Origin: Actinobacillus suis ATCC 33415
Lineage (GTDB): Bacteria > Pseudomonadota > Gammaproteobacteria > Enterobacterales > Pasteurellaceae
DNA length: 64,000 bases
Reading direction: 5' to 3'
NCBI RefSeq assembly: GCF_000739435.1
Contig: NZ_CP009159.1
Span: 558,001-622,000, forward strand
Position numbers and translations under genes: made by a program. Each line of letters opens with the position of its first letter. Position 1 is the stretch's first letter. Below the pieces are notes generated by a model. It saw nothing but the letters and a program-made list of their open reading frames with translations. It was not told where the DNA came from and did not search any database. Positions 7,694 through 18,709 of this stretch are shown here, piece after piece.

Positions 7694-7770
7694 CCCCCCT
7701 TAGCTCAGTCGGTTAGAGCAGGCGACTCATAATCGCTTGGTCACTGGTTCAAGTCCGGTAGGGGGGACCA
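7694..7770 (+). tRNA. ileX: tRNA-Ile2 (anticodon CAU, lysidine-modified)
   Basis: A 77-base cloverleaf: acceptor CCCCCCT pairs with AGGGGGG, then discriminator A and encoded CCA. The anticodon stem GCGA/TCGC holds the loop CTCATAA, so the anticodon is CAT. The anticodon arm and D-arm match E. coli ileX (tRNA-Ile2, whose C34 is converted to lysidine by TilS) rather than initiator or elongator Met tRNA. The T-arm is ACTGG-TTCAAGT-CCGGT. It is the attachment site of the element that follows; its 3' end is partly repeated at 18626. Confidence 0.9.
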
Positions 7771-7831
7771 ACTTCACTTTTCCACTCTTTCGTTTTCTTT
7801 CGTACTCTTACACTCAAGCCTTGATATTACT
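7746..7831 (+). repeat. Left attachment copy (attL): tRNA 3' end and adjoining 60 bases
   Basis: The tRNA T-arm/acceptor 3' part and the next 60 bases recur imperfectly at 18626-18709. Shared blocks include CCAACTT, ACTCTTTCGT and CTCAAGCCTTGAT. The left copy keeps the tRNA intact. I interpret it as attL of the element. Confidence 0.7.
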
Positions 7832-7901
7832 AGCTTTATCGTACTTTTTCATTATTTTTTCTTACGTATTCTTTCGCATTCATTCGTTTACAGCCGTGAA
7901 T

Positions 7902-7957
7902 TTTAGTTATACATTTAGTTATACGGAGCATATAACTAAAAAAATCGTATAACTAAA
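7902..7957. repeat. Cluster of TTTAGTTATAC sites upstream of int
   Basis: TTTAGTTATAC occurs at 7902-7912 and 7914-7924 (12-base period) and inverted at 7931-7940 (10 of 11 bases) and 7947-7957, ending 9 bases before the integrase start. The same pair with the same period recurs near the right end at 18550. These are likely integrase or AlpA arm-type binding sites and could also autoregulate int. Confidence 0.7.
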
Positions 7958-7966
7958 AGGGCTAAA

Positions 7967-9184
7967 ATGGCGAGATTAACTAAACCACTTACTAATACCG
8001 AAATAGAGCGAGCCAAAGCTAAAGAGAAGGAGTATACACTTTCTGATGGTGGCGGACTTTATCTACTTATCAAATCTAACGGCGCTAAGTTATGGCGCTT
8101 TAACTACTATAAACCGCTTACTAAGAAAAGAGCCTTAATAAGTTTTGGCCGCTATCCTGATATATCACTACAACAGGCGAGAAAACAGCGAGATGAATGT
8201 TTATCTCTATTAGCGGTAAATACTGATCCACTGGAACACCGCCAACAGATGGAAAGAGAAGAGCAAGCCAAGCTAGAAAATACCTTGTTGAAAATAGTTG
8301 AGCTATGGCATAGCAAACGCCTCGATGATGTAAAGCACGGGGAGATTCAAGCAGAAACTCTACGGAAAAACAGGGCAATCTTAGACAAGCATATTTTGCC
8401 AATGTTAGGTCATTTAGCGATAACAGAGATTAGCCCAAGAATTGTAGTCAGTGCGCTAGAGCCAGCTAAAGAAAGAGGTTTAGGCGATACTCTCAAGCGT
8501 GCTATTCGATTATTGAATGAAGTGTTAAATTTCTCAGTAAATGCAGATTTGATTGAGTTTAATAAATGCCTGAAAGTAAGCGATCATTTCAGTACGCCTA
8601 AAGCCGTGAATAACCCAACCATTCCGCCAAAAGAATTACCTGCGTTTTTAGAAGCCCTGAGGGATAGCAATTTGTCCTTACAAACGAAGTTATTGATTAA
8701 GTGGCAGTTGCTCACAATTACCCGCCCAAAAGAAGCCTGCGAAGCGTTATGGCGCGAAATTGATTGGGAAGCTAAAACCTGGACGTTACCCGCTGAAAAA
8801 ATGAAGATGAAGCGCCCGCACGTAATTCCCTTAAGTAACCAATCATTGCGCATACTTGAAAAGATGAAAAAGATTACAGGTAACAGCCCTTTCATATTTC
8901 AAAGTGAGATAAAGCCCAAGCAACCAATGAATAGCCAAACAGCAAATCGAGCAATCAAACTACTAGGCTATGAAGGGCGTTTAACTGCTCACGGTTTAAG
9001 GTCGATAGCTTCTACTTACTTGAATGAACAATTAGTCAATTATGACGTGGTAGAGGCTTGCCTTGCTCACGTTATCAAAGACCAAACCAGAAAGGCTTAC
9101 AACCGTTCTGATTATCTCGATCAACGAGTAGAAGTAATGCAACAATGGGCGGATTATGTTGAGAAGTGTTCTATTGGGATTTAG
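7967..9184 (+). CDS. int: Tyrosine recombinase/integrase, P4-like
   Basis: The 405-residue site-specific recombinase catalyses integration and excision of the element at the tRNA. The N-terminal DUF4102-type domain contains LSDGGGLYLLI and RALISFGRYPDISLQQAR. The catalytic domain carries the first Arg in TITRPKEACEALW (about residue 255), HGLRSIAST (about 341-349), His in EACLAHVIKD and the nucleophilic Tyr in RKAYNRSDY, so all expected residues are there. AAGGG precedes the ATG. A stretch near its start (8001-8030) matches CRISPR spacer 11 at 24 of 30 bases. Confidence 0.96.
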   Translation: MARLTKPLTNTEIERAKAKEKEYTLSDGGGLYLLIKSNGAKLWRFNYYKPLTKKRALISFGRYPDISLQQARKQRDECLSLLAVNTDPLEHRQQMEREEQAKLENTLLKIVELWHSKRLDDVKHGEIQAETLRKNRAILDKHILPMLGHLAITEISPRIVVSALEPAKERGLGDTLKRAIRLLNEVLNFSVNADLIEFNKCLKVSDHFSTPKAVNNPTIPPKELPAFLEALRDSNLSLQTKLLIKWQLLTITRPKEACEALWREIDWEAKTWTLPAEKMKMKRPHVIPLSNQSLRILEKMKKITGNSPFIFQSEIKPKQPMNSQTANRAIKLLGYEGRLTAHGLRSIASTYLNEQLVNYDVVEACLAHVIKDQTRKAYNRSDYLDQRVEVMQQWADYVEKCSIGI

Positions 9185-9229
9185 TAGAGCATTTTCAGAA
9201 CATGGGGGAATTAACGATTTTTACCTATA

Positions 9230-9407
9230 CTGTATAAATTTATTCCCTCCTCTCTATTAGGAAGCATATTTTTAATAGTCCAATAGTCCAAAACACCCTT
9301 TTTAAGGTATGAAATCATTATATATCAATAAGTTAGATGTAAAATTATTGGACTATCATTGGACTAAAATCACCATTTTTGGACTAAAATACCCCCTTTT
9401 TGGACTA
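9230..9407 (+). repeat. Left copy of a 178-bp direct repeat with six TTGGACTA iterons
   Basis: Near-identical to 17786-17962; differences are limited to a few bases at the left edge and one A/G near the right edge. Inside are TAGTCCAA at 9276 and 9284 and TTGGACTA at 9348, 9359, 9379 and 9400. No gene lies between int and fic apart from this. It is probably a cis site for replication, comparable in arrangement to one of the two P4 replication loci. Confidence 0.9.
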
Positions 9408-9526
9408 TTTATTGAAAATTTAGTACGGCAAATAGGATACTTTTAAGGCGAATTATATTTTACAAACTCAAATGAATACGGAATAATGCGTAAAACAACG
9501 CAATTTTAAAAAATTGAGGTATTAAA

Positions 9527-10855
9527 ATGAAAATGCCAAAACCACCAGCTTATGACGAGTTACTCCAAGCACCAGTAAACCATAATGACTTTTTCAATTA
9601 CTTAGCTGAATTTAAAGCGACGGATGAGAAAGGGCGGTATCTTGCGTGGGATAAGTTCAAGCGGGTAAATCCTAATGATAGTTTGCAAAAATGGCTGGCG
9701 GTAAAGATGAACCGCAAAACATTACAGAAAACACTTAAGATAGGCGATATTTCTTTTGCTTTTTGTGTACCTGATAGCTTACAGGCGACACTACATTTCA
9801 TTGATAAATCAACTGGCGGAAGTGTTGGCGTGAGTAGCCTCGAGGGCTTAAGTAAGCAAGAACAGGGGCGTTTTTTGTTGAAATCTTTAGTGATGGAAGA
9901 AGCGATAACCTCAGCACAGCTAGAAGGGGCGGTAACAACTCGAAAAGTAGCTAAGGAAATGTTAGAAACGGCAAGAAAGCCAAGAACAAAAGACGAAATG
10001 ATGATAGTAAATAACTATTATCTGATGCAAGAAGCCATAGCTCGTAAAGATGAACCGCTTAGCATTGAATTGATTCTTGAGCTTCATCGTATTGCAACGC
10101 ACAACGCCATTGAAAATAAAGCCGTAGCGGGAGAGTTTAGGCAAGATGATGAAATTTATATCGCTGATGAATACGGAGATAAAATCCATCAACCGCCAAC
10201 GCATACCGAGCTAAATCATTTAATGACAGCTTTTTGTGATTTTGCCAATGATGAACATACGGGAGAGAGTGGGAATTTTATTCACCCTGTAATCAAGGCG
10301 ATCATTCTTCATTTCTTGATTGGCTATATCCACCCTTTCGGAGATGGAAACGGAAGAACCGCTAGAGCCTTGTTTTATTGGTATATGCTCAAAAGCGGAT
10401 ATTGGCTATTTGAGTTTATTTCTGTAAGTAGATTACTGAAAGAAGCCCCGAAACAATACGCCATGAGCTATATAGATACGGAAACAGACGAGTTAGATAT
10501 GACGTATTTTCTTTACTATCAAGCTAATATTATTAAGCGGGCTATTGCTGATTTAGAAAACTATATCATTAATAAACAGCGTGATTTTAGTAACTTTGTG
10601 AGCGTGATAGCGGACTTTACCGCCAAGACAAAAATCAGTCATAGACAAATCCAAATTTTGCAAAAAGCGGTTAAAGAAACAGGCTATATCTTCACGGCAA
10701 AAGAAATCAGCAATGAATACGGTATATCTGAGAACACAGCAAGAAGCGATTTAAAGGCACTACTAGACTTAAATCTACTGGGACAATTCAAGATAGGAAA
10801 TGCTATCGGGTATATTTCCCCGAATGATTTACTAGAACGTCTTAAACGTGCTTAG
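9527..10855 (+). CDS. fic: Fic-domain protein (predicted AMPylase) with inhibitory helix and C-terminal winged helix
   Basis: The 442-residue protein has an N-terminal Fic_N-like region, an inhibitory motif SAQLEG (about residues 130-135, matching [S/T]xxxE[G/N]), the active-site motif HPFGDGNGRTAR (about 268-279, catalytic His first) and a C-terminal helix-turn-helix (ISNEYGISENTARSDLKAL). Fic enzymes transfer AMP or other nucleotides to target hydroxyls; the inhibitory helix placed before the Fic core makes this class II, self-restrained by its own Glu. TTGAGGT precedes the ATG. It is the main cargo gene of the element, between the left iteron block and the leader RNA. Targets are unknown; roles in phage defence, toxicity or regulation are all possible. 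Confidence 0.93.
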   Translation: MKMPKPPAYDELLQAPVNHNDFFNYLAEFKATDEKGRYLAWDKFKRVNPNDSLQKWLAVKMNRKTLQKTLKIGDISFAFCVPDSLQATLHFIDKSTGGSVGVSSLEGLSKQEQGRFLLKSLVMEEAITSAQLEGAVTTRKVAKEMLETARKPRTKDEMMIVNNYYLMQEAIARKDEPLSIELILELHRIATHNAIENKAVAGEFRQDDEIYIADEYGDKIHQPPTHTELNHLMTAFCDFANDEHTGESGNFIHPVIKAIILHFLIGYIHPFGDGNGRTARALFYWYMLKSGYWLFEFISVSRLLKEAPKQYAMSYIDTETDELDMTYFLYYQANIIKRAIADLENYIINKQRDFSNFVSVIADFTAKTKISHRQIQILQKAVKETGYIFTAKEISNEYGISENTARSDLKALLDLNLLGQFKIGNAIGYISPNDLLERLKRA

Positions 10856-10857
10856 GT

Positions 10858-10885
10858 AACTGTTTATAAAAACAGGTTTTCCTTT
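10858..10885 (+). terminator. Possible terminator after fic
   Basis: CTGTTT and AAACAG form a short hairpin followed by GTTTTCCTTT just after the fic stop. Confidence 0.5.
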
Positions 10886-10911
10886 ATTAGCACGAAAGAA
10901 AACGATATAAT
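10883..10911 (+). promoter_or_regulatory. Putative promoter of the leader RNA and coiled-coil gene
   Basis: TTTATT at 10883 and a perfect TATAAT at 10906, spaced 17 bases. The predicted start is near 10918, giving a leader of about 130 bases before the next start codon. Confidence 0.5.
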
Positions 10912-10917
10912 ACGCAA

Positions 10918-11045
10918 TATTACATAGCCTTAAATGGCTTTCCAATTTGAGCAACTAGGAGCGGACTAATTACCCGAGCCGAAAAGAAACTACCCCTATT
11001 AGCTTCCTGTTGCTCACTCTCTTAATAGGGCAACGTGTAGGGGCG
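10918..11045 (+). ncRNA. Structured leader, candidate C4-like antisense RNA
   Basis: Several complementary segments compete in this leader. GAGCAAC (10949-10955) pairs with GTTGCTC (11009-11015), extended by AGGA with TCCT. CCCTATTA (10994-11001) pairs with TAATAGGG (11023-11030). CCCCTA (10993 onward) pairs with TAGGGG at 11038-11043, which is the ribosome-binding site of the gene at 11049. This matches the logic of the phage P1/P7 C4 RNA and P4 CI RNA, in which upstream segments pair with downstream copies and occlude the first gene of an immunity operon. The assignment to that family is from memory of its architecture, not a covariance search. Confidence 0.5.
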
Positions 11046-11048
11046 TTT

Positions 11049-11924
11049 ATGGCAAAATCACAGGATTATTATAATAAATTACCTGATTGTTCAATTGTTG
11101 ATTATGAACTTATCCCACTTCCTGAAGCTTGCTTATTATGGTGCGGGGTGAGCTTTGAAGATTTAGCTGATGAAGTTAAACTTCTGACAAATATATCACA
11201 AAGTATTTATAAACACCCTTATATTCCTTGTTTAGAAAAGAAAACAAGAGTTATAAATAGGGCAATTAACGAGGGTAAATTAAGAGTAGTTAGAGAACAC
11301 GGAGAGGGTGGAGAAATTATTACAGACTATTTAGGTAACATAAAAAGAGATAATAAAGGCAATCCTTTAATTGATCACGTTGCTTATGATCGCAGGCATT
11401 TTTGGATTAAAGACTTAAAAGCTTTTATTTCTGAAAATTTCCCAAATGATCGCCCTAAAACAATTTTCTATGATGAGGAATTAAAACCATCTGTAAATGT
11501 TGAAGACAATTTAAAATTACAAGCAAAGATCAATGAACTACAAATAACACTGGCAAGCGAACAAAGCAAAATCCGTGATTATGAGTTAGCAATGCAATCA
11601 TTATCTCATCAAACCCAATTAGCTAAAACAGCACAACAGGACGCAGAGGAGCGATTAGAAAGAGGACGTGAGTTGTATCGACAATTACAAACGGCTTATA
11701 ATCAACTTAAGCTCCCCCCTGAAAGTAATATAAACTTAGATAATACCCTTTACTTACTAGGCGAAGTTATCAATGCAGTAAAATCCAAGCATAAGCAATG
11801 GACACAGTCTGCGATTATTGATGAAATTTTTACACTACGACAAGGAAAATCAATAACAGGATTAGAACAGAGAACAATCGAAGAATACTTTTCTAATGCA
11901 AATAAACGGCTAAAAGCCAAATAA
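11049..11924 (+). CDS. Phage/island protein with central coiled coil, function unknown
   Basis: The 291-residue product has three parts. An N-terminal module (residues 1-150) contains LPEACLLWCGVSFEDL, RVINRAINEGKLRVV and RRHFWIKDLKAFISE. A coiled coil follows at about 158-220 (NLKLQAKINELQITLASEQ onward). The C-terminal module includes LDNTLYLLGEVINAV and RTIEEYFSNANKRLK. I have seen this general arrangement in Pasteurellaceae and Neisseria mobile elements but know no function. An in-frame start at 11010 exists; the ATG at 11049 is preceded by TAGGGG and chosen. Its ribosome site may be masked by the leader RNA. A terminator follows. Confidence 0.8.
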   Translation: MAKSQDYYNKLPDCSIVDYELIPLPEACLLWCGVSFEDLADEVKLLTNISQSIYKHPYIPCLEKKTRVINRAINEGKLRVVREHGEGGEIITDYLGNIKRDNKGNPLIDHVAYDRRHFWIKDLKAFISENFPNDRPKTIFYDEELKPSVNVEDNLKLQAKINELQITLASEQSKIRDYELAMQSLSHQTQLAKTAQQDAEERLERGRELYRQLQTAYNQLKLPPESNINLDNTLYLLGEVINAVKSKHKQWTQSAIIDEIFTLRQGKSITGLEQRTIEEYFSNANKRLKAK

Positions 11925-11930
11925 CCGCAA

Positions 11931-11957
11931 ACGCCCAAATTATGAGGGCGTTTTTTA
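11931..11957 (+). terminator. Terminator after the coiled-coil gene
   Basis: AACGCCC and GGGCGTT form a hairpin followed by six T. Confidence 0.85.
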
Positions 11958-12092
11958 TTGCCAAAATCTCTTTATTTTCAATTAGTTATTTTCGCAACGA
12001 GAAAATCTTTTTCGGCTGCGATGACCTTTCTGACACGCTCTACCACAATACGCCCCGAATGATTAACTAATAAATCGCAAAGGAGCGTAAGA

Positions 12093-12308
12093 ATGGAACA
12101 TATCCCATCAATCGAAACTAACCAACCTCAAACTATGGCAACTCCGCCAAAGCAATTACTCAATGTTCAAGATGTGCGCACAGTAACTGGTTTATCAGTT
12201 ACTACTATCTACAAACTCGTGAAAGATGGCGCATTCCCACAGCCGAAAAAATGCGGGCGATCTACTCGTTGGCGTTTAGCGGATATTCAAGCCTATATCA
12301 ATTCGTAG
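12093..12308 (+). CDS. alpA: AlpA-family regulator / excisionase-like protein
   Basis: The 71-residue protein has a MerR-like winged helix typical of AlpA (PF05930): LLNVQDVRTVTGLSVTTIYKLVKDGAFPQP, then RSTRWRLADIQAYINS. AlpA of the E. coli CP4-57 island and P4-like Vis proteins activate excision or island transcription, and AlpA is the usual regulator in Gram-negative PICIs. AAAGGAG precedes the ATG. It begins a compact operon that runs to the broken terS. Confidence 0.92.
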   Translation: MEHIPSIETNQPQTMATPPKQLLNVQDVRTVTGLSVTTIYKLVKDGAFPQPKKCGRSTRWRLADIQAYINS

Positions 12309-12317
12309 GGGGAGCTT

Positions 12318-12698
12318 ATGAACGCTAATACTACACGTAAAGAAAAGCTAGGAAGCTATTTATTAGCAAGCCGTAACGGCTTTTCTGAACTGGACGGAAT
12401 GAGGGAATTAGGCATTACCAGCGGTCGAAACGAGATCAACGAACTAGAAGCGATTACACAGACTGAATTTATTCGTATTCAAGAACATAACCAAAACGGA
12501 GGCACATATTTTCGCTATTTCTTAGCGGATAAAACACAAGCGGAGAGATTAATCACTTTCCTAAATGGAAAAGCAGTAAGTCGTAACGCAGCGATTCCCT
12601 ATCCGCCAACGGTGGCGGAATCTGTACTTAATCAATTAGCAACGCCAACACAGGCGCAATTACAGCACAAAGTGCGTAAACCGGTGAAAGGAGTGTAA
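12318..12698 (+). CDS. Hypothetical element protein
   Basis: Unrecognised 126-residue protein starting 10 bases after alpA behind GGGGGAG. The first half (LGSYLLASRNGFSELDGMRE onward) could form a small helix-turn-helix of the type that selects alternative start signals; the C-terminus is basic and Pro/Gln-rich. Its operon position between alpA and rha suggests a regulatory or replication accessory role, but this is inference. Confidence 0.7.
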   Translation: MNANTTRKEKLGSYLLASRNGFSELDGMRELGITSGRNEINELEAITQTEFIRIQEHNQNGGTYFRYFLADKTQAERLITFLNGKAVSRNAAIPYPPTVAESVLNQLATPTQAQLQHKVRKPVKGV

Positions 12699-12713
12699 AA
12701 GGAGTGATTCAGT

Positions 12714-12989
12714 ATGAAGTGTGAAATAGCCAAGATGAATACGGTATTAATTCAGCACGCATTTGATTACTACGCTGCCGGCAATAAGAACGTATTCACG
12801 TTTAAGAGCCTGTACAACGATGAAGAACCCTACCCGCTTGAGGAGCTTATCACTTGCCTTAATACGCGCATTCAGATTTTAGAAGCGGAACAGCAAGAAA
12901 AACACACCGAGAGCCGGCAGACTTCAATCTGGCTATATGCGAAAAGAATTAAGCAATTGGAAACGATTAGAAAGGGGAAAATGAGATGA
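12714..12989 (+). CDS. Hypothetical element protein
   Basis: Unrecognised 91-residue, charged, mostly helical protein. No motif is visible. AAGGAGTG precedes the ATG, and its stop overlaps the rha start as ATGA, so it is translationally coupled to it. A second ATG (about residue 8, before NTVLIQH) is a possible start. Confidence 0.65.
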   Translation: MKCEIAKMNTVLIQHAFDYYAAGNKNVFTFKSLYNDEEPYPLEELITCLNTRIQILEAEQQEKHTESRQTSIWLYAKRIKQLETIRKGKMR

Positions 12990-13675
12990 AAGGATTAAAT
13001 GAGCAATTACCGATTGAAGCGGTATTTCCTAAAGTGTTTCGTAAAGAAACCGTTGCAATGACAAATACTCTCAAAGTAGCGGAATATTTCGGAAAACAGC
13101 ATAAAAACATTTTGCAACGTCTTGAAAATTTAGACTGTTCAGAAGCATTTAACCGGCTGAATTTTAAGCCCGTTAAGTACACCGACCAAAAGGGAGAAAG
13201 CCGGAAGATGTTCTTAATGACCCAAGACGGCTTTACGCTTTTAGTTATGGGATTTACCGGTAAAAAAGCAATGCAATTCAAAGAATCCTACATTGCAGAA
13301 TTTAACCGAATGAAAAAGCAACTTGATAGCAAAGACCGCTTAAGAGATACGTAACACTTACTTAATGAAGCGATTGATTTCAAACAGCAGACCTCTGAAA
13401 AAGAAGATCCGCACGCTTACAGCCGCGAAAATACTCTCGTTTATTGTGTAGCGTTGGGCATGAGTAAAAAGAAATGGTTATCACAGAATGGTTATCCGGC
13501 AGATGTTGAAATCCGCCAATTTCTCACACCGGAACAACTTGATTTAATCCATTTACTGGTTACGGAAAACGCTACCATGATTAAGTTAGGCTTGGAGTAC
13601 ACAGTACGTAAAAATCATTTACAAGCAAGTGCGTTGCATTACTGGCGCAAACTAGCGGCAAATAAGGAAAAATAA
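12986..13675 (+). pseudogene. rha: Rha-family phage regulator interrupted by an in-frame TAA
   Basis: The first 122 codons encode a Rha domain (PF09669: TNTLKVAEYFGKQHKNILQR, FKPVKYTDQKGESRKMFLMT, GFTLLVMGFTGKKA). A TAA at 13352-13354 then interrupts, but the same frame stays open for another 106 codons (HLLNEAIDFKQQTSEKEDPH, then SRENTLVYCVALGMSKKKWL) to TAA at 13673. The second part looks like the normal C-terminal portion, so I read this as one 229-residue gene broken by a nonsense mutation. A 122-residue Rha fragment may still be made. Rha proteins occur in lambdoid phages and interfere with infection of strains lacking IHF. Confidence 0.8.
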
Positions 13676-14105
13676 TGACAACAACCTAACACCCAAACAA
13701 GAAGCCTTTGCGCTGAAATATGTTGAATTAGGTAACGCAAGCGAAGCATACCGCCAAGCCTACAATACTGATGAAATGAAGCCGGAAACCGTCCACCGAA
13801 AAGCTAATGAGCTGATGAGTAACGGCAAGATTACGGCAAGGATTGACGAGCTAAAGGCAGAACATCAAGCACGGCACAAGCTGACCGTCGATGACTTGCT
13901 AATTGATCTAGACGAAGCGAGAAACATAGCAAAAGAGAACGGCAATGCTAATGCAATGATTTCCGCCACAATGGCAAAAGCGAAGTTATTGGGGCTTGAT
14001 AAGCCAACGTTAGAAGTAGCGGTAAATGGTACGTTAGACAATATCCCGACAGTTATCGAACTTGTTGCACCTAGCTTTGATAACTCGAATTCTTGGAGTC
14101 CATAA
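13675..14105 (+). pseudogene. terS: Terminase small subunit with N-terminal frameshift
   Basis: The ATG at 13675 overlaps the previous stop (TAATG), but its frame ends after four codons. One frame away the sequence reads NNLTPKQEAFALKYVELGN, then ASEAYRQAYNTDEMKPETV, the helix-turn-helix start of Terminase_2 small subunits, and stays open to 14105. Adding one A within GACAACAACC restores MTNNLTPKQEA. The first in-frame ATG left is at 13776, which would lose the DNA-binding part (109 residues remain). No large terminase follows. TerS in satellites redirects packaging of helper phage capsids. Confidence 0.82.
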
Positions 14106-14106
14106 A

Positions 14107-14137
14107 AACGCCCTCAAAGCGACACTAAGAGGGCGAA
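14107..14137. terminator. Hairpin after terS
   Basis: CGCCCTC and GAGGGCG enclose 13 bases. The T-run is on the minus-strand side, so on the plus strand this may be only a stabilising or weak terminating hairpin. Confidence 0.45.
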
Positions 14138-14166
14138 AACAAAAATTTAAAAAAGGTATTTAACCG

Positions 14167-14802
14167 ATGAATATTTTACAGTACATCACAACAAATAGCG
14201 ACACAATCGACAATAATCCGCAAGGTTATTTAGATATGGTTCATTCCGTACTATCGGCGGAATTTGCAAAAAATGAAGAAAATTCGACCGCTTGTAAAAA
14301 GAATTGCTTTACAAGTTTAGCGAATAAGGTTTATGCTACTCTCGCTTTCGCAAAATCGGAAGCCGAGCGTGGAAACTCGAATAATTTACTTGTGGCGAAC
14401 ACTAGCACGCCTTTCAATGACCGTGCTTTTTTTGTTCGTGGACTAAACACACCTAAAGAAAATGACCAATCCAAAAATGGATTCGTTACATTTCTCTCTA
14501 TGGTAGCGTTTAGTGGGCAACGTTTAATCGTTGGCTGTGTTCCACAAGTCGCAGTTTTCCACCCCGCTAAACGCTATCGCCAAGCCGTGGAAAGCAAAGC
14601 GATAGACTCTAAAAATTTACTTGTGGAGCTATCAGCCATGATCTACCTATTCAAAGCCGTAAGCCGTTTAGACTTACGCAACACGTCAAAACCGATTTCA
14701 TCATTCCCTTGCTATACCGTGCGTATTAAAGCCAATAGCTTAGAACAAGCTAAAGCTAAGGTCTGCCCTTTCTTTGCCGTTAAAGAGGTGGTTTATGCGT
14801 AA
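14167..14802 (+). CDS. Ash/Icd-like phage protein
   Basis: The 211-residue product has a central block FVTFLSMVAFSGQRLIVG and AVFHPAKRYRQAVESKA, and a C-terminal block YTVRIKANSLEQAKAKV. These resemble the phage Ash/Icd-like families of P4-type elements (Icd: inhibitor of cell division), a similarity recalled from family patterns and not verified. The N-terminal 80 residues look unrelated and may be lineage-specific. Its end overlaps the next gene by 8 bases. It carries one complete uptake signal at 14287-14295. Confidence 0.55.
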   Translation: MNILQYITTNSDTIDNNPQGYLDMVHSVLSAEFAKNEENSTACKKNCFTSLANKVYATLAFAKSEAERGNSNNLLVANTSTPFNDRAFFVRGLNTPKENDQSKNGFVTFLSMVAFSGQRLIVGCVPQVAVFHPAKRYRQAVESKAIDSKNLLVELSAMIYLFKAVSRLDLRNTSKPISSFPCYTVRIKANSLEQAKAKVCPFFAVKEVVYA

Positions 14803-15136
14803 CACAAATAAATTGATTGAAGATATTCGTGAGCAAACCGACAACCTCGATATGCTCCTTACCTATGCGAATAGTTTATCAAGTGCGATTAGCGTCGATC
14901 ATTCTGAGTGCATCAGTGTAGATGGCGAAAGCGAATTTACTTATAGCAGCGATATTGCCGACGGCTTACTTGCGCTTAATGATTACCTTATTGGGCAGAT
15001 TAAACAGGCACACCGCCAACGTGATCAACAGATTTATGAATTAATCAAAGTTCACGAAGCACAGACCGAAGCATTGAACGCTTACAAATTGGCGGAATGT
15101 GAACGAAAAGCGGTGGAGGTAGCGAAAGATGAGTAA
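14795..15136 (+). CDS. Hypothetical element protein
   Basis: Unrecognised 113-residue acidic protein, largely helical, with a heptad-like C-terminal half (IGQIKQAHRQRDQQIYELIK). The start ATG at 14795 lies within the end of the previous gene (ATGCGTAA overlap), and an AGAGGTGG sequence precedes it; an earlier in-frame start at 14774 lacks a site. Coupled translation with its neighbours is likely. Confidence 0.65.
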   Translation: MRNTNKLIEDIREQTDNLDMLLTYANSLSSAISVDHSECISVDGESEFTYSSDIADGLLALNDYLIGQIKQAHRQRDQQIYELIKVHEAQTEALNAYKLAECERKAVEVAKDE

Positions 15137-15332
15137 CCAACAAGCACAATTTAACGAAGGAATGGCTAAATGTTGGCAAGCGGCGACCCTATTAGATGCT
15201 ATGTCAAAATCACGTCTTCAAGATATGGATGGTGTAAGTATTAGTATAGCAATCGAAGGAATTCACGGCATTCTTATATCTGCCTTATCTGAAATGGAAA
15301 ATTTAAACTTTAAGGGAGGCGAGAATGAGTAA
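15129..15332 (+). CDS. Small hypothetical element protein
   Basis: The 67-residue product is unrecognised. It starts within the previous gene (ATGAGTAA overlap) behind GGAGG and overlaps the next gene the same way. No motif is visible. It belongs to the run of small genes ahead of the primase. Confidence 0.6.
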   Translation: MSNQQAQFNEGMAKCWQAATLLDAMSKSRLQDMDGVSISIAIEGIHGILISALSEMENLNFKGGENE

Positions 15333-15549
15333 TCTAGAAACCCTCCATTCAATCAAGCAGCCGTTAGATATGGCGAAGATATTCCTTGAGATTGCTTTAA
15401 CCGGCAACGGTGCGGTACGACGTGAAAACGGTACGCTGATGAGCAGAGATGAAATACTGGCGGAAGCCTTCCAATACTTAGATGAAGCGCACACTTACTT
15501 ACAGGAAGTGATCGAAGAGGTGGAGTATGAACAAAATCCGCTTTTATGA
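15325..15549 (+). CDS. Small hypothetical element protein
   Basis: The 74-residue acidic product (LDMAKIFLEIALTGNGAVRR, ending EVEYEQNPLL) is unrecognised. GGGAGGCG precedes the ATG. It overlaps the primase gene by 23 bases, which again implies coupling. Confidence 0.6.
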   Translation: MSNLETLHSIKQPLDMAKIFLEIALTGNGAVRRENGTLMSRDEILAEAFQYLDEAHTYLQEVIEEVEYEQNPLL

Positions 15550-17698
15550 TGACCAGTTAGCAAAAACGAACGCTTTCAACGATTGGATTATTCTAGCAGG
15601 AAGAGACGTACATAAAGCCTATTACCGATGGAATAAAGAGACTAACCATTCAGAAGCAGGCAAAGGCGAAAGATGGGCATTAATTCGTGATAGCTTCAAG
15701 CTAGGCAATGATATGATTCCGTGCTTGTTGGATAGCAAAGATTTGGGCCAATTAGACCGCTTGTTACTTGCGCCGGCAGCACAACGATTCATTAAAATAT
15801 TCCAAGTGGGGGAACTCCCCACTTTGGCGAAAGATAAAGATGATTTTCGCACCCGAGTATTGATGAACCTCGCAGAACATTGCCCGAATCTTACCGCCGT
15901 AGAATGGCTAGATGAAGGCTTTAATACGGAAAACCTAACCAGCGAATATCAGCGCATTAAGAACGGACAGCACGCTACCGCAGAGCTTTTAGAGCAACGC
16001 ACACTTAACCCCGAAGATGATACCGCTCCACGTGTAGAAATGCGTAAGCGTGGCGGATTAAAAGGCTTGTACTATGTTACTACTCGTATTGTGGACGGTG
16101 AGAAAGTCGAAAGCGAAAAATGGTTATCCGATTTTGTCGAGGTCATCGGACTAGGCAAAGGAGAAAGTGAACATTTCATTATTTTGCAAAAAGAGAAGCA
16201 AGAACGACCGCTTGTTATGCCGCTAAAAGATATTGGTGAGCGTGACGGCTGGCAGTATTTGAAACGTAATGATGTGACGGTAACTACTAAGCAAGCACTA
16301 CGGGCGGAATTAGCCGATTATTTGCAATTTAAAAGCCGAACCGCCAAGCAGTATTACATTACCGACAAAACCGGCTGGAATGAAGATTTAACCGCTTTTA
16401 CCTTGCCAAACGGGGAAACCTTAGGGCAACCGCAAACCCCGACCATTTTCCGCAATTTAACGCAGAATATCGAAGGATATAGAGTAAGCGGAACAACAGC
16501 GGACTGGGTGGAGAATATCGGGCGTTATTGCGTAGGTAATCCGTCGATGATGTTATCGATTGGCGTGGCATTAAGTGCGCCATTATTGAAACCTTTAGAG
16601 GCGGACGGCTACGGCGTACACCTTTACGAAGATTCAACATTCGGTAAAACAACCGCTTTAAATATCGCTTCCTCAATTTACGGACACCCAAGAGAAACTC
16701 GTACAGCATGGAACGCTACACCGTTGGCCTTACAGAACGAAGCCTTTAGCCGTAACGGGCTATTTATGCCGTTAGATGAAATCAGCGAAGCCAGTCCGAA
16801 AGCCGTCGCACAGACCGCTTATAGCTTGTTTAACGGACAAGGGAAGTTACAAGGTGCGAAAGAAGGTGGAAATCGCAAGTCGATTAAATGGCTAGTAGCG
16901 AATCTCTCCACCGGTGAGGAAGGTTTAGAGAGCTACCTCAAGCAACAAGGGATAAAGGTCAATGCCGGCCAATTAGTCCGCTTACTCAATATCCCGATGA
17001 AACGAGCGACAGAGTTTCACGGCTTGGCGGACGGTAAAACGCACGCTGACGCGCTCAATGCAAACGTCATGCGCTATTTTGGTGCGGTGGGTGTAGATTG
17101 GCTCACTTATCTAGTCCAAGCGGAAAAAAGCGCATTGAGAGCGTTATACGACAAAGTAAAACAATCTCGATTAAAGAGCTTGCCGGATAATTCAGAACCT
17201 CAAATTAAGCGGGTGATGGCGGATAGATTCGCCCTCATTGAAACCGCCTTATTATTGGCTAAGGATATCTTACAATGGACGGAAAAGGATATATCAAACG
17301 CTATCACGGCTAACTTCAATGAATGGGTAAACGCTTATGGCTGGCACTCGAAAAAGCATACACAGATCATTGAACAAGTGAACGGTTGGCTATTGGTAAA
17401 TGCTGATACTCGTTTTGAAGAGTTTCCACCGGACGGCACACAGAAGCCTATCAGCAATAAAGCCGGTTATCGACTGGTAGAAGATGACCGTTATTTTGTC
17501 TTCAAAAGCGTATTTGAAGATGAAGCCTTACAAGGGCAGACGAAAGAGGTTGCACTTCCGGTATTAGTTAAAGCGGGCATTCTTCATAAGGGAGAGGGCA
17601 ACGGCTACGCATACCTCCAACGAATACCACACAAGATCAACCCAAAGAGAACCCGAGCTTATCTGATAGAGATTCTCAATGAGAATAGCGACGAATAG
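15527..17698 (+). CDS. DUF927-type primase/helicase-like replication protein
   Basis: The 723-residue protein matches the DUF927 pattern: an N-terminal toprim/primase-like half, then VSGTTADWVENIGRYCVGNP and an ATPase core with Walker A region LYEDSTFGKTTAL (about residues 367-379) and Walker B region LFMPLDEI (about 412-419). The first Gly of the Walker A consensus is replaced by Glu, but GKTT is kept. Such proteins are the replication initiators/helicases of P4-like and PICI satellites. GAGGTGG lies upstream of the ATG. The 12-copy iteron cluster starts about 130 bases after its stop, as expected if it acts on that origin. Two uptake signals lie inside the gene. Confidence 0.85.
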   Translation: MNKIRFYDDQLAKTNAFNDWIILAGRDVHKAYYRWNKETNHSEAGKGERWALIRDSFKLGNDMIPCLLDSKDLGQLDRLLLAPAAQRFIKIFQVGELPTLAKDKDDFRTRVLMNLAEHCPNLTAVEWLDEGFNTENLTSEYQRIKNGQHATAELLEQRTLNPEDDTAPRVEMRKRGGLKGLYYVTTRIVDGEKVESEKWLSDFVEVIGLGKGESEHFIILQKEKQERPLVMPLKDIGERDGWQYLKRNDVTVTTKQALRAELADYLQFKSRTAKQYYITDKTGWNEDLTAFTLPNGETLGQPQTPTIFRNLTQNIEGYRVSGTTADWVENIGRYCVGNPSMMLSIGVALSAPLLKPLEADGYGVHLYEDSTFGKTTALNIASSIYGHPRETRTAWNATPLALQNEAFSRNGLFMPLDEISEASPKAVAQTAYSLFNGQGKLQGAKEGGNRKSIKWLVANLSTGEEGLESYLKQQGIKVNAGQLVRLLNIPMKRATEFHGLADGKTHADALNANVMRYFGAVGVDWLTYLVQAEKSALRALYDKVKQSRLKSLPDNSEPQIKRVMADRFALIETALLLAKDILQWTEKDISNAITANFNEWVNAYGWHSKKHTQIIEQVNGWLLVNADTRFEEFPPDGTQKPISNKAGYRLVEDDRYFVFKSVFEDEALQGQTKEVALPVLVKAGILHKGEGNGYAYLQRIPHKINPKRTRAYLIEILNENSDE

Positions 17699-17717
17699 CC
17701 ATATCATTAAACTACAT

Positions 17718-17747
17718 TCAGACCGCCATTATTGGCGGTTTTTTTGT
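17718..17747 (+). terminator. Terminator after the primase gene
   Basis: CCGCC and GGCGG with an ATTATT loop, followed by seven T. Confidence 0.85.
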
Positions 17748-17785
17748 TATGCTTTATTGTTTATAAAATGCACTTTTTATACAAC

Positions 17786-18119
17786 CTGTATAAATTTATT
17801 CTCCCTTTCTATTAGGAAGCATATTTTTAATAGTCCAATAGTCCAAAACACCCTTTTTAAGGTATGAAATCATTATATATCAATAAGTTAGATGTAAAAT
17901 TATTGGACTATCATTGGACTAAAATCACCGTTTTTGGACTAAAATACCCCCTTTTTGGACTAAATGCTTAAGCTAAAAAAATAAAAGAGCCAAAAAACAT
18001 TTAGTCCAAAAACCACCTAAAATAGTCCAAAATGTAAAAAAATAGTCCAAAAAATTTTATGTAACCTATTGAATATAAAAAGAAAAGTTGGATTTTGGAC
18101 TAATTGGACTATTGGACTA
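17786..18119 (+). repeat. Right iteron cluster, candidate replication origin: 178-bp repeat copy plus six more iterons
   Basis: The first 177 bases copy 9230-9407 with six iterons. Further TAGTCCAA lie at 18002, 18023 and 18043, and TTGGACTA at 18095, 18104 and 18112. Altogether there are 12 copies in about 290 bases of AT-rich DNA with both orientations present. Iterons plus AT-rich DNA beside a replication protein gene is the classic layout of an initiator-bound origin. Confidence 0.8.
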
Positions 18120-18139
18120 CGAATTTTTCCTTATATAAT
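18112..18139 (+). promoter_or_regulatory. Promoter overlapping the last iteron
   Basis: TTGGAC (18112-18117, part of the last iteron) and TATAAT (18134-18139) are 16 bases apart. An initiator bound to the iteron would block this promoter. Confidence 0.45.
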
Positions 18140-18155
18140 AGAGAGGGTGGAAGGT

Positions 18156-18209
18156 ATGAAAATCTTATACAGTGGTTTTATGACTGCCACTACAAAGCTT
18201 TTAGTATAA
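18156..18209 (+). CDS. Possible 17-residue leader peptide
   Basis: ATG at 18156 with GGAAGG upstream opens 17 codons (MKILYSGFMTATTKLLV) before TAA. AGTGG and CCACT inside it form a small hairpin. Its position behind the iteron-overlapping promoter is the only support for it being real. Confidence 0.25.
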   Translation: MKILYSGFMTATTKLLV

Positions 18210-18215
18210 AAGGTA

Positions 18216-18290
18216 CTCCTGAGGGGATACCCTTTCCACGGGGTTGGGGCCGCGCGGTTTTCGGCAGATTTTACGATTTTTAGGCATCAT
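18216..18290 (+). other. GC-rich segment resembling a lambda-type cos site
   Basis: Within otherwise AT-rich DNA, CACGGGGTTGGGGCCGCG followed by CGGTTTTCGGCAGATTTT resembles lambda cosN (ACGGGG, then CGCGGGTTTTCG) by eye. An imperfect dyad GGTACTCC/GGGGATACC lies just upstream. A satellite that carries terS would need a cos or pac site for packaging. Confidence 0.4.
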
Positions 18291-18549
18291 CATCATTTAA
18301 AAATATTTTCATTGAGCAATAAGCTACTACACTCTAGGAACAAGCCGGCATAAGGCTTTTACCTCATTTTATAAGAAACCTTCCATTCAGCACAAAGGCT
18401 TAAAAGATGGCGATTGATGTCGAATTAGGTATAAGCCGTCGGCTGACACCTCTCCTAAGTTAGAGGATGTTAGGAGACAAACAAAGAACTAACTTTCTTA
18501 CGCTAAAGAATTGGTTATAAAGTAGGCTAATTGGTGGGTGACTTTTTGA
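18291..18549 (+). other. Non-coding right end of the element
   Basis: I find no credible gene in these 260 bases. They carry no recognised repeat apart from what is listed separately. Confidence 0.4.
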
Positions 18550-18572
18550 TTTAGTTATACGTTTAGTTATAC
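18550..18572 (+). repeat. Right-end pair of TTTAGTTATAC arm-type sites
   Basis: Two TTTAGTTATAC copies with the same 12-base period and the same trailing CGGA as at 7902-7927, about 55 bases before the right att copy. A third, shorter TTTAGTTATA lies at 18761-18770. Confidence 0.7.
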
Positions 18573-18625
18573 GGAATAACTTTGGTTTTGCTTGGGGTGT
18601 TGTGTTGCAATGCTTTGTGTGGGTT

Positions 18626-18709
18626 GGTTCAAACTCGGTAGGGGGCCAACTTAACTTTTCTACTCTTTCGTCTTCTTACGTTTTCTTATTCTCAAGCCTT
18701 GATTTTACT
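18626..18709 (+). repeat. Right attachment copy (attR), decayed
   Basis: An imperfect copy of the tRNA 3' end (GGTTCAAACTCGGTAGGGGG then CCAACTT) and of the 60 bases following it at the left end. The tRNA part has lost bases and would not make a functional acceptor stem. Confidence 0.7.

Follow-up and report, generated by a model that had tools for sequence, protein, structure and literature searches.

Actinobacillus suis ATCC 33415 carries a ~10.9-kb element in the 64,000-nucleotide stretch analyzed here (contig NZ_CP009159.1, positions 558,001 to 622,000; hereafter the window), which lies between a tRNA gene with a CAT anticodon and a right attachment site (attR, 18625-18652) and in which all genes are co-directional; features lie on the plus strand unless stated otherwise. 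The tRNA gene (7694-7770) was called tRNA-Met by ARAGORN from its CAT anticodon, and its similarity to ileX suggests tRNA-Ile2. Its 3' end forms the left attachment site (attL, 7745-7774), and the block common to both sites starts at ~7756 on the left and at ~18636 on the right. Natural empty sites were found in two congeneric genomes (G001 and G008), indicating that Int-mediated integration took place at the 3' end of the tRNA gene, which remained whole. A first-pass annotation had placed the island at 7694-18709; the location was borne out, and the right end is corrected to attR because of the right attachment copy and the empty sites. This copy differs from the tRNA 3' end by three bases, and because the identical difference occurs in all four tRNA-CAT islands found, it appears to be an arm of the element itself rather than a product of decay.

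Pfam and PHROGs scans covered 16 open reading frames (ORFs) of the island, and none of them matched a capsid, portal, tail, large terminase or lysis gene; the first-pass annotation had likewise reported no gene of the first four kinds. The gene int (7967-9184) encodes a tyrosine recombinase with an Arm-DNA-bind_3 domain, and alpA (12093-12308) matched PF05930 above the cut-off. After alpA come two core genes without assigned function, encoding proteins of 126 (12318-12698) and 91 (12714-12989) amino acids, then rha (12986-13675), a frame for the small terminase TerS (terS, 13677-14105), the Ash frame (PF10554, 14167-14802), which carries the immunity RNAs, three small ORFs without assigned function (14795-15549) and rep (15527-17698), the gene for a DUF927 replication protein that matched phrog_1139 (DNA primase). 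Because this core order (two small genes, an antirepressor, a small-terminase-like slot, Ash, small genes and DUF927) is repeated in seven further islands from the genus, the layout is more than chance. The first-pass annotation had listed int beside a tRNA gene, alpA, rha, terS, the DUF927 protein and iterons, all of which are in place, although rha and terS proved not to be intact; it had missed the isrK and C4 RNAs, the Ash frame and the cos-like site described below. Megablast of the island against phages returned 112 records, and among the 20 matches listed only the tRNA end matched.

The damage to rha and terS was examined by comparison with the seven sibling islands of the genus (given locus numbers, L). 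The window rha contains an internal stop (13352-13354), and uninterrupted copies of 229-233 amino acids are present in four siblings (L055, L057, L060 and L064); in the other three (L058, L059 and L063) a different gene, antirepressor-like by eye, occupies its place. The window terS frame has no start codon before 13776, which is the start of a 109-amino-acid remnant, and an intact terS in G006 encodes 146 amino acids and is 98.6% identical to the window frame. Four of the 17 satellite-type terS copies (window, L121, L124 and L126) have no usable start for the first ~34 codons, which may be plain decay. The short forms were also considered as functional genes, an idea that was not supported.

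All siblings except L064 carry another small gene in the terS slot. That of L055 showed weak similarity to a terS profile (E 0.0048) and matched nothing in the phage collection. Of its 68 relatives in databases some are annotated as terminase, and the named relatives belong to Actinobacillus, Aggregatibacter, Rodentibacter, Avibacterium, Pasteurella and Frederiksenia. The window terS itself matched 181 phage records, the best 20 of which, at 53-54% identity, almost all bear a small-terminase annotation, and it matched in 33 of 140 genomes of the family; an IMG/VR scan returned distant relatives only (26-34%). In 19 loci examined for context, a gene like that of the large terminase (TerL) comes after terS in four (L069, L128, L129 and L130), and in the other 15 terS stands among island genes with no TerL in view within a flank of ~1.5 kb. 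A tree built from 21 rows places the four sequences from prophages together (93/87), and the nearest neighbours of this cluster are L123 and L126, both from satellites; the placement of the long branches L127 and L131 is unsure.

Between int and alpA lie two further genes. The product of fic (9527-10855) is a Fic-domain protein with a C-terminal helix-turn-helix, is of the SoFic type (PADLOC 8.5e-47) and is carried as cargo; among the nine genomes of the genus surveyed (G000 to G008, G000 being the window genome), a near-identical copy (99.5%) occurs in G006 only, and a defence role for it would be a guess. The second (11010-11924) encodes a protein of 304 amino acids as called, without assigned function and without a Pfam match in the window copy; it has 47 database relatives, of which the named ones are mostly from Pasteurellaceae and some adjoin terS in satellites. 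Outside the island, the window contains a CRISPR array with 16 CRISPR-DR34 repeats (1621-2646), and its 15 spacers found no match in the window outside the array or in the loci compared with them.

Antisense RNAs in the Ash frame

Rfam identified two RNAs within the Ash frame: an isrK-family RNA (14344-14433), which ends in a terminator-like hairpin followed by seven T residues, and a C4-family antisense RNA (14496-14584). The pairing loop of the C4 RNA (14542-14549) has a seqA-like target upstream (14388-14395) and a seqC-like target downstream (14619-14627). The Rfam threshold was passed by C4 in all eight genus islands and by isrK in seven of them (not L063), and C4 passed it as well in each of 11 other Pasteurellaceae loci taken around a DUF927 gene.

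Loops and targets were compared among 23 C4 RNAs, which contain 14 different loop cores. The apical loop found a perfect complement of at least 8 nucleotides upstream in 19 and downstream in 21 of them, and when loops were swapped onto the flanks of other elements the same matches were found in 9/466 upstream and 18/466 downstream cases; the elements are related, so that the matches are not independent events. A hairpin with a T-run follows the upstream site in 21 of the 23. In the other two (L100 and L108) an upstream site exists that differs from the loop and the downstream site fits, and these are possible hybrids or cases of changing specificity. Three further C4 RNAs matched upstream in two cases and downstream in one, giving at least one 8-nucleotide match in 25 of 26 overall. 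One locus, L104, contains two C4 RNAs of different specificity ~1.1 kb apart (9462-9550 and 10579-10667).

The ratio of nonsynonymous to synonymous differences (pN/pS) of Ash was 0.86 and 0.96 in two comparisons between immunity groups and 0.19-0.33, on few differences, within one group; it was 0.08-0.11 for rep and 0.06-0.49 for the other small genes. The RNA seems to be kept more than the Ash protein.

In phage P4, the CI RNA pairs with seqA upstream and seqC downstream (PMC4825925), and the island C4 loop likewise matches one upstream and one downstream target. The covariation of loop and targets is strong sequence-level evidence that these satellites use the P4 antisense switch; pairing and covariation can be read from the sequences, and processing and termination are what we infer. 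Matches to C4 and isrK in Gram-negative phage-inducible chromosomal islands (PICIs), and satellites at tRNA-Ile2, have been reported before (PMC10111431). Among the matches listed by a literature search, with subscription papers mostly outside it, none described this island or immunity groups based on C4 in satellites of Pasteurellaceae.

Replication block, cos-like site and occupancy of the locus

Behind rep lies a cluster of iterons (17786-18119; TAGTCCAA, present 12 times within the 1200 bases that follow rep), which is presumed to be the origin, and an origin-like copy of the iteron block is located on the left (9230-9407), after int, as it is in G002 and G006. In 16 of 18 loci (all but L106 and L107), exact 8-mers recur after rep more often than in any of 60 shuffles, and in 12 they do so more often than in any other window of that locus; L100, outside that count, contains 13 iteron copies. 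Residue 702 of the replication protein (17630-17632) is His in five elements that have TTGGACTA iterons only and Arg in three elements that also have TGGGACTA iterons. This residue and the last one, which separates the two sets as well, were considered as markers of iteron type and set aside, since they adjoin the origin and may mark a single event, and the distant loci follow no simple rule. Rfam searches below threshold on 17700-18700 gave only weak matches, taken as chance. The DUF927 protein matched in 22 of 61 genomes searched. The nearest named genomes that carry it are those of Actinobacillus capsulatus, A. ureae and A. genomosp. 2.

A cos-like site (18207-18296) follows the iterons. 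Matching stretches, unannotated in the phage records, lie ahead of terS in Pasteurella phage Pmp14 (83%, at a distance of 52 bases) and in Salmonella phage Fels-1 (77%, 120 bases), and 37 bases of the site match Providencia phage PSTCR8lys, 192 bases before the gene preceding TerL; these were all the phage records matching at E 0.01. A prophage in G007 matches 89 bases of it at 93%, ~50 bases before a terS-like frame and a GpA-type TerL. The adjoining 140-base flank (18297-18437, no strand assigned) is common to four sibling islands (L055, L057, L060 and L063), stands beside int in three, and is found neither in the phages nor in G007. The site was detected in 13 of 32 satellite loci and in five of the eight in the genus (blastn 1e-4). 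It is probably a cos site, judging from these matches, and would point to a lambda-type helper; cleavage there is suggested by homology and position, by analogy with EcCICFT073. A link between loss of terS and the site was tried and dropped: the site is present in 2/4 broken and 5/13 intact loci (one on a short contig), showing no association. The G007 prophage (L065, L085), with its cos-like site before the terminase genes, provides a model of a possible helper.

The tRNA locus was compared across the nine genomes, a check that the first-pass annotation had proposed, and besides the two empty sites the element was found in four (G000, G002, G003 and G006). Next to the empty site of G001, a leuB-like gene is broken across two frames (G001:C1:565964-567044). 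G007 carries a full prophage of ~39 kb at the tRNA gene, with a GpA-type TerL by Pfam and its other genes identified by eye. In that place G004 has a prophage-like remnant of 11 kb, and G005 retains of the element just the left end with a part of int, adjoining a rearrangement. Two further sites hold the core, tRNA-Ala (G000 and G005) and the transfer-messenger RNA (tmRNA) gene (G003 and G004), in islands whose integrases are 42-48% identical to the window Int.

The second island of G000, at tRNA-Ala, shows zero mismatches to the window across 14301-17900, a 3.6-kb block comprising the immunity and replication functions. To the left of this block, divergence is 2.5-8% over 12301-13500 and the two terS slots hold unrelated sequences, and to the right of 17900 the next bins diverge by 7.5 and 14%. 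The immunity-replication block has therefore been exchanged recently, although the mismatch-free stretch may be an assembly artefact. Co-resident islands belonged to the same immunity group in both pairs seen, in G000 and in G003.

Class assignment and competing explanations

These results suggest that the island is very probably a phage satellite of Gram-negative PICI architecture, and it is filed so by architecture only, because a prophage (G007) and a prophage-like remnant (G004) occupy the same tRNA gene elsewhere. The first-pass reading as a satellite is supported by the empty sites, the three integration sites, the lack of structural genes in the scans and a cos-like site shared with phages; of its "PICI/P4-type" label, the first half stands. 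Int, AlpA and primase occur in that order and in one direction, the zones run in the order integration, Bro and replication with the immunity RNAs in the Bro zone, the 16 ORFs include no structural or lytic phage gene, and the iterons follow rep as an origin would follow the primase, their origin function being presumed. The first-pass annotation had contrasted the single gene direction with a divergent layout usual in many PICIs; as described in PMC10111431, one direction is the rule in Gram-negative PICIs, and it is the Gram-positive ones that show divergent genes (PMC6092414).

The island resembles the Gram-negative PICIs of PMC10111431 in its int and alpA integration zone, its Bro zone with Rha and the C4 and isrK RNAs, its replication zone with the origin after the primase, its single direction, its size of ~10 kb and its tRNA site. 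It differs from them in a late zone free of genes, terS in the Bro zone, a DUF927 replication protein and broken rha and terS; some Gram-negative PICIs carry captured late genes. In EcCICFT073, cosN is common with the helper and cosB is not, and there are two cos sites and no TerS (PMC6092414). The island is alike in having a cos-like core common with phages and a flank that is not, and unlike in having, at the sequence level, one cos-like site found and a broken terS. PmCI172 of Pasteurella multocida, compared by its description in PMC6092414, is a PICI-type element from the same bacterial family; it has a Mu-like helper and carries a major capsid homologue, and no capsid gene was found in the island. 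The PICMI elements of Vibrionaceae (PMC10803314) are similarly small, with int-alpA-primase and no capsid genes; they use a fis site and a DUF3987/DUF5906 primase, neither of which the island has, and it uses a tRNA gene and DUF927 instead.

Several observations weigh against the assignment and the P4-type immunity that goes with it. The island has no late zone or capsid gene, and its attachment site is not free of prophages, given the prophage in G007 (one of nine genomes) and the remnant in G004; a prophage-free site is listed for Gram-positive PICIs, and one shared site is reported in E. coli (PMC6092414). The cos-like site was not detected in 19 of the 32 satellite loci, three of which (L058, L059 and L064) are from the genus. 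In IMG/VR, 27 bases of the site used as an exact query gave no match, and the replication protein has no close relative there. No helper prophage was detected in G000 with Terminase_3, Terminase_6C, GpA_ATPase, Terminase_6N and Portal_Mu, HK97-type TerL not being searched; Portal_Mu matched 0/14 control genomes and 4/9 genus genomes. Among the C4 RNAs, that of L155 matches neither target, L100 and L108 have no upstream match, L104a and L107 match only 7 nucleotides upstream, and L119, L125 and L156 have no downstream match. Two other small genes have pN/pS values of 0.32-0.49, so relaxed constraint is not unique to Ash. Finally, excision, replication and packaging of the element are steps that we infer.

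The alternative that survives best is that the island is a locked relic, a satellite of this type whose packaging has been lost with the breakage of rha and terS, which overlaps with the PICI-type assignment and which we regard as possible but doubtful. The internal stop in rha, the start-less terS and the lack of a resident helper marker in G000 fit such a relic, but int, alpA, rep, C4, the iterons and the cos-like site are all in place, the block at 14301-17900 is mismatch-free against the other island and so was recently exchanged, and EcCICFT073 has cos sites without TerS (PMC6092414).

That the island is a deletion remnant of a full prophage is very improbable. The first-pass annotation had named a full prophage at this locus as the finding that would speak against a satellite, and one does exist in G007, with a prophage-like remnant in G004 at the same tRNA gene. 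By blastn, the similarity of the G007 prophage to the window region is limited to the left flank and to 89 bases in the cos-like site, and by tblastn no island gene, not even that of the integrase, matches the prophage except the small ORF over that site. The G004 remnant matches the flanks by blastn and, by tblastn, the integrase (41%) and a piece of the DUF927 protein (30%), and may itself hold satellite parts; apart from the right flank in G004, no other island or outside sequence is common with G004 or G007. The island is not read as a prophage remnant because its core is complete at other sites, and six loci read in other genera have int, an Ash frame containing C4 and the DUF927 gene in the same order.

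A strict P4-like satellite is just as hard to credit. The integrase, AlpA, PF10554 (epsilon) and a CI-like RNA of the C4 family with upstream and downstream targets are shared with P4 (seqA and seqC, PMC4825925), but the 16 ORFs include no psu (PF07455), delta (PF04606) or alpha (PF03288), which with sid belong to the P4-like definition in PMC8628076, and, unlike P4, the island carries terS. An integrated plasmid or other phage-independent replicon, for which the iterons, the replication protein and the lack of a capsid gene could be cited, is the least credible explanation given a terS homologous to phage small terminases, Rha, AlpA, the P4-type immunity and the cos-like site.

Proposed life cycle and meaning

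For the PICI-type satellite we propose the following cycle. In the quiet state, which would correspond to the CI-seqA-seqC switch of P4, the transcript through the Ash frame would be cut short: the C4 RNA would be processed from this transcript and pair by its loop with two sites, one just before the terminator and one downstream. Upon induction, a helper phage would raise AlpA and the terminator would be overridden, Int and AlpA would excise the element as a circle, and the DUF927 protein would start replication at the iterons behind its own gene. The terminase of a lambda-type helper would then cut the cos-like site and fill helper capsids. In this copy, with rha and terS damaged, packaging may proceed via the cos-like site and the helper's small terminase or via the second island, or it may be impaired.

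New here are the damage to rha and terS, the cos-like site, the covariation of the C4 loop with its targets and the mismatch-free block shared with the second island. We also make a tentative proposal, which we hold to be possible and not yet probable: Pasteurellaceae satellites would carry a 6- to 8-nucleotide code in the C4 loop and both of its targets, forming at least 14 immunity groups; co-resident islands would share the code and swap the immunity-replication-origin block, and a damaged island would be silenced, woken and replicated together with its intact sibling and may ride via its own cos-like site. Only two pairs of co-resident islands bear on shared immunity, and the two different C4 RNAs of L104 count against such a rule.

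If this holds, the damaged island would exploit a satellite as a cheater, just as that satellite exploits a phage. The findings extend PICI-type satellites in Actinobacillus and its relatives and account for the gene layout that the first-pass annotation had found unusual; here the coupled change of loop and target predicts immunity groups and the cos-like site names the type of helper to look for. The swap of a block between two islands of one cell would offer a natural case for studying shared immunity as a possible condition for cohabitation.

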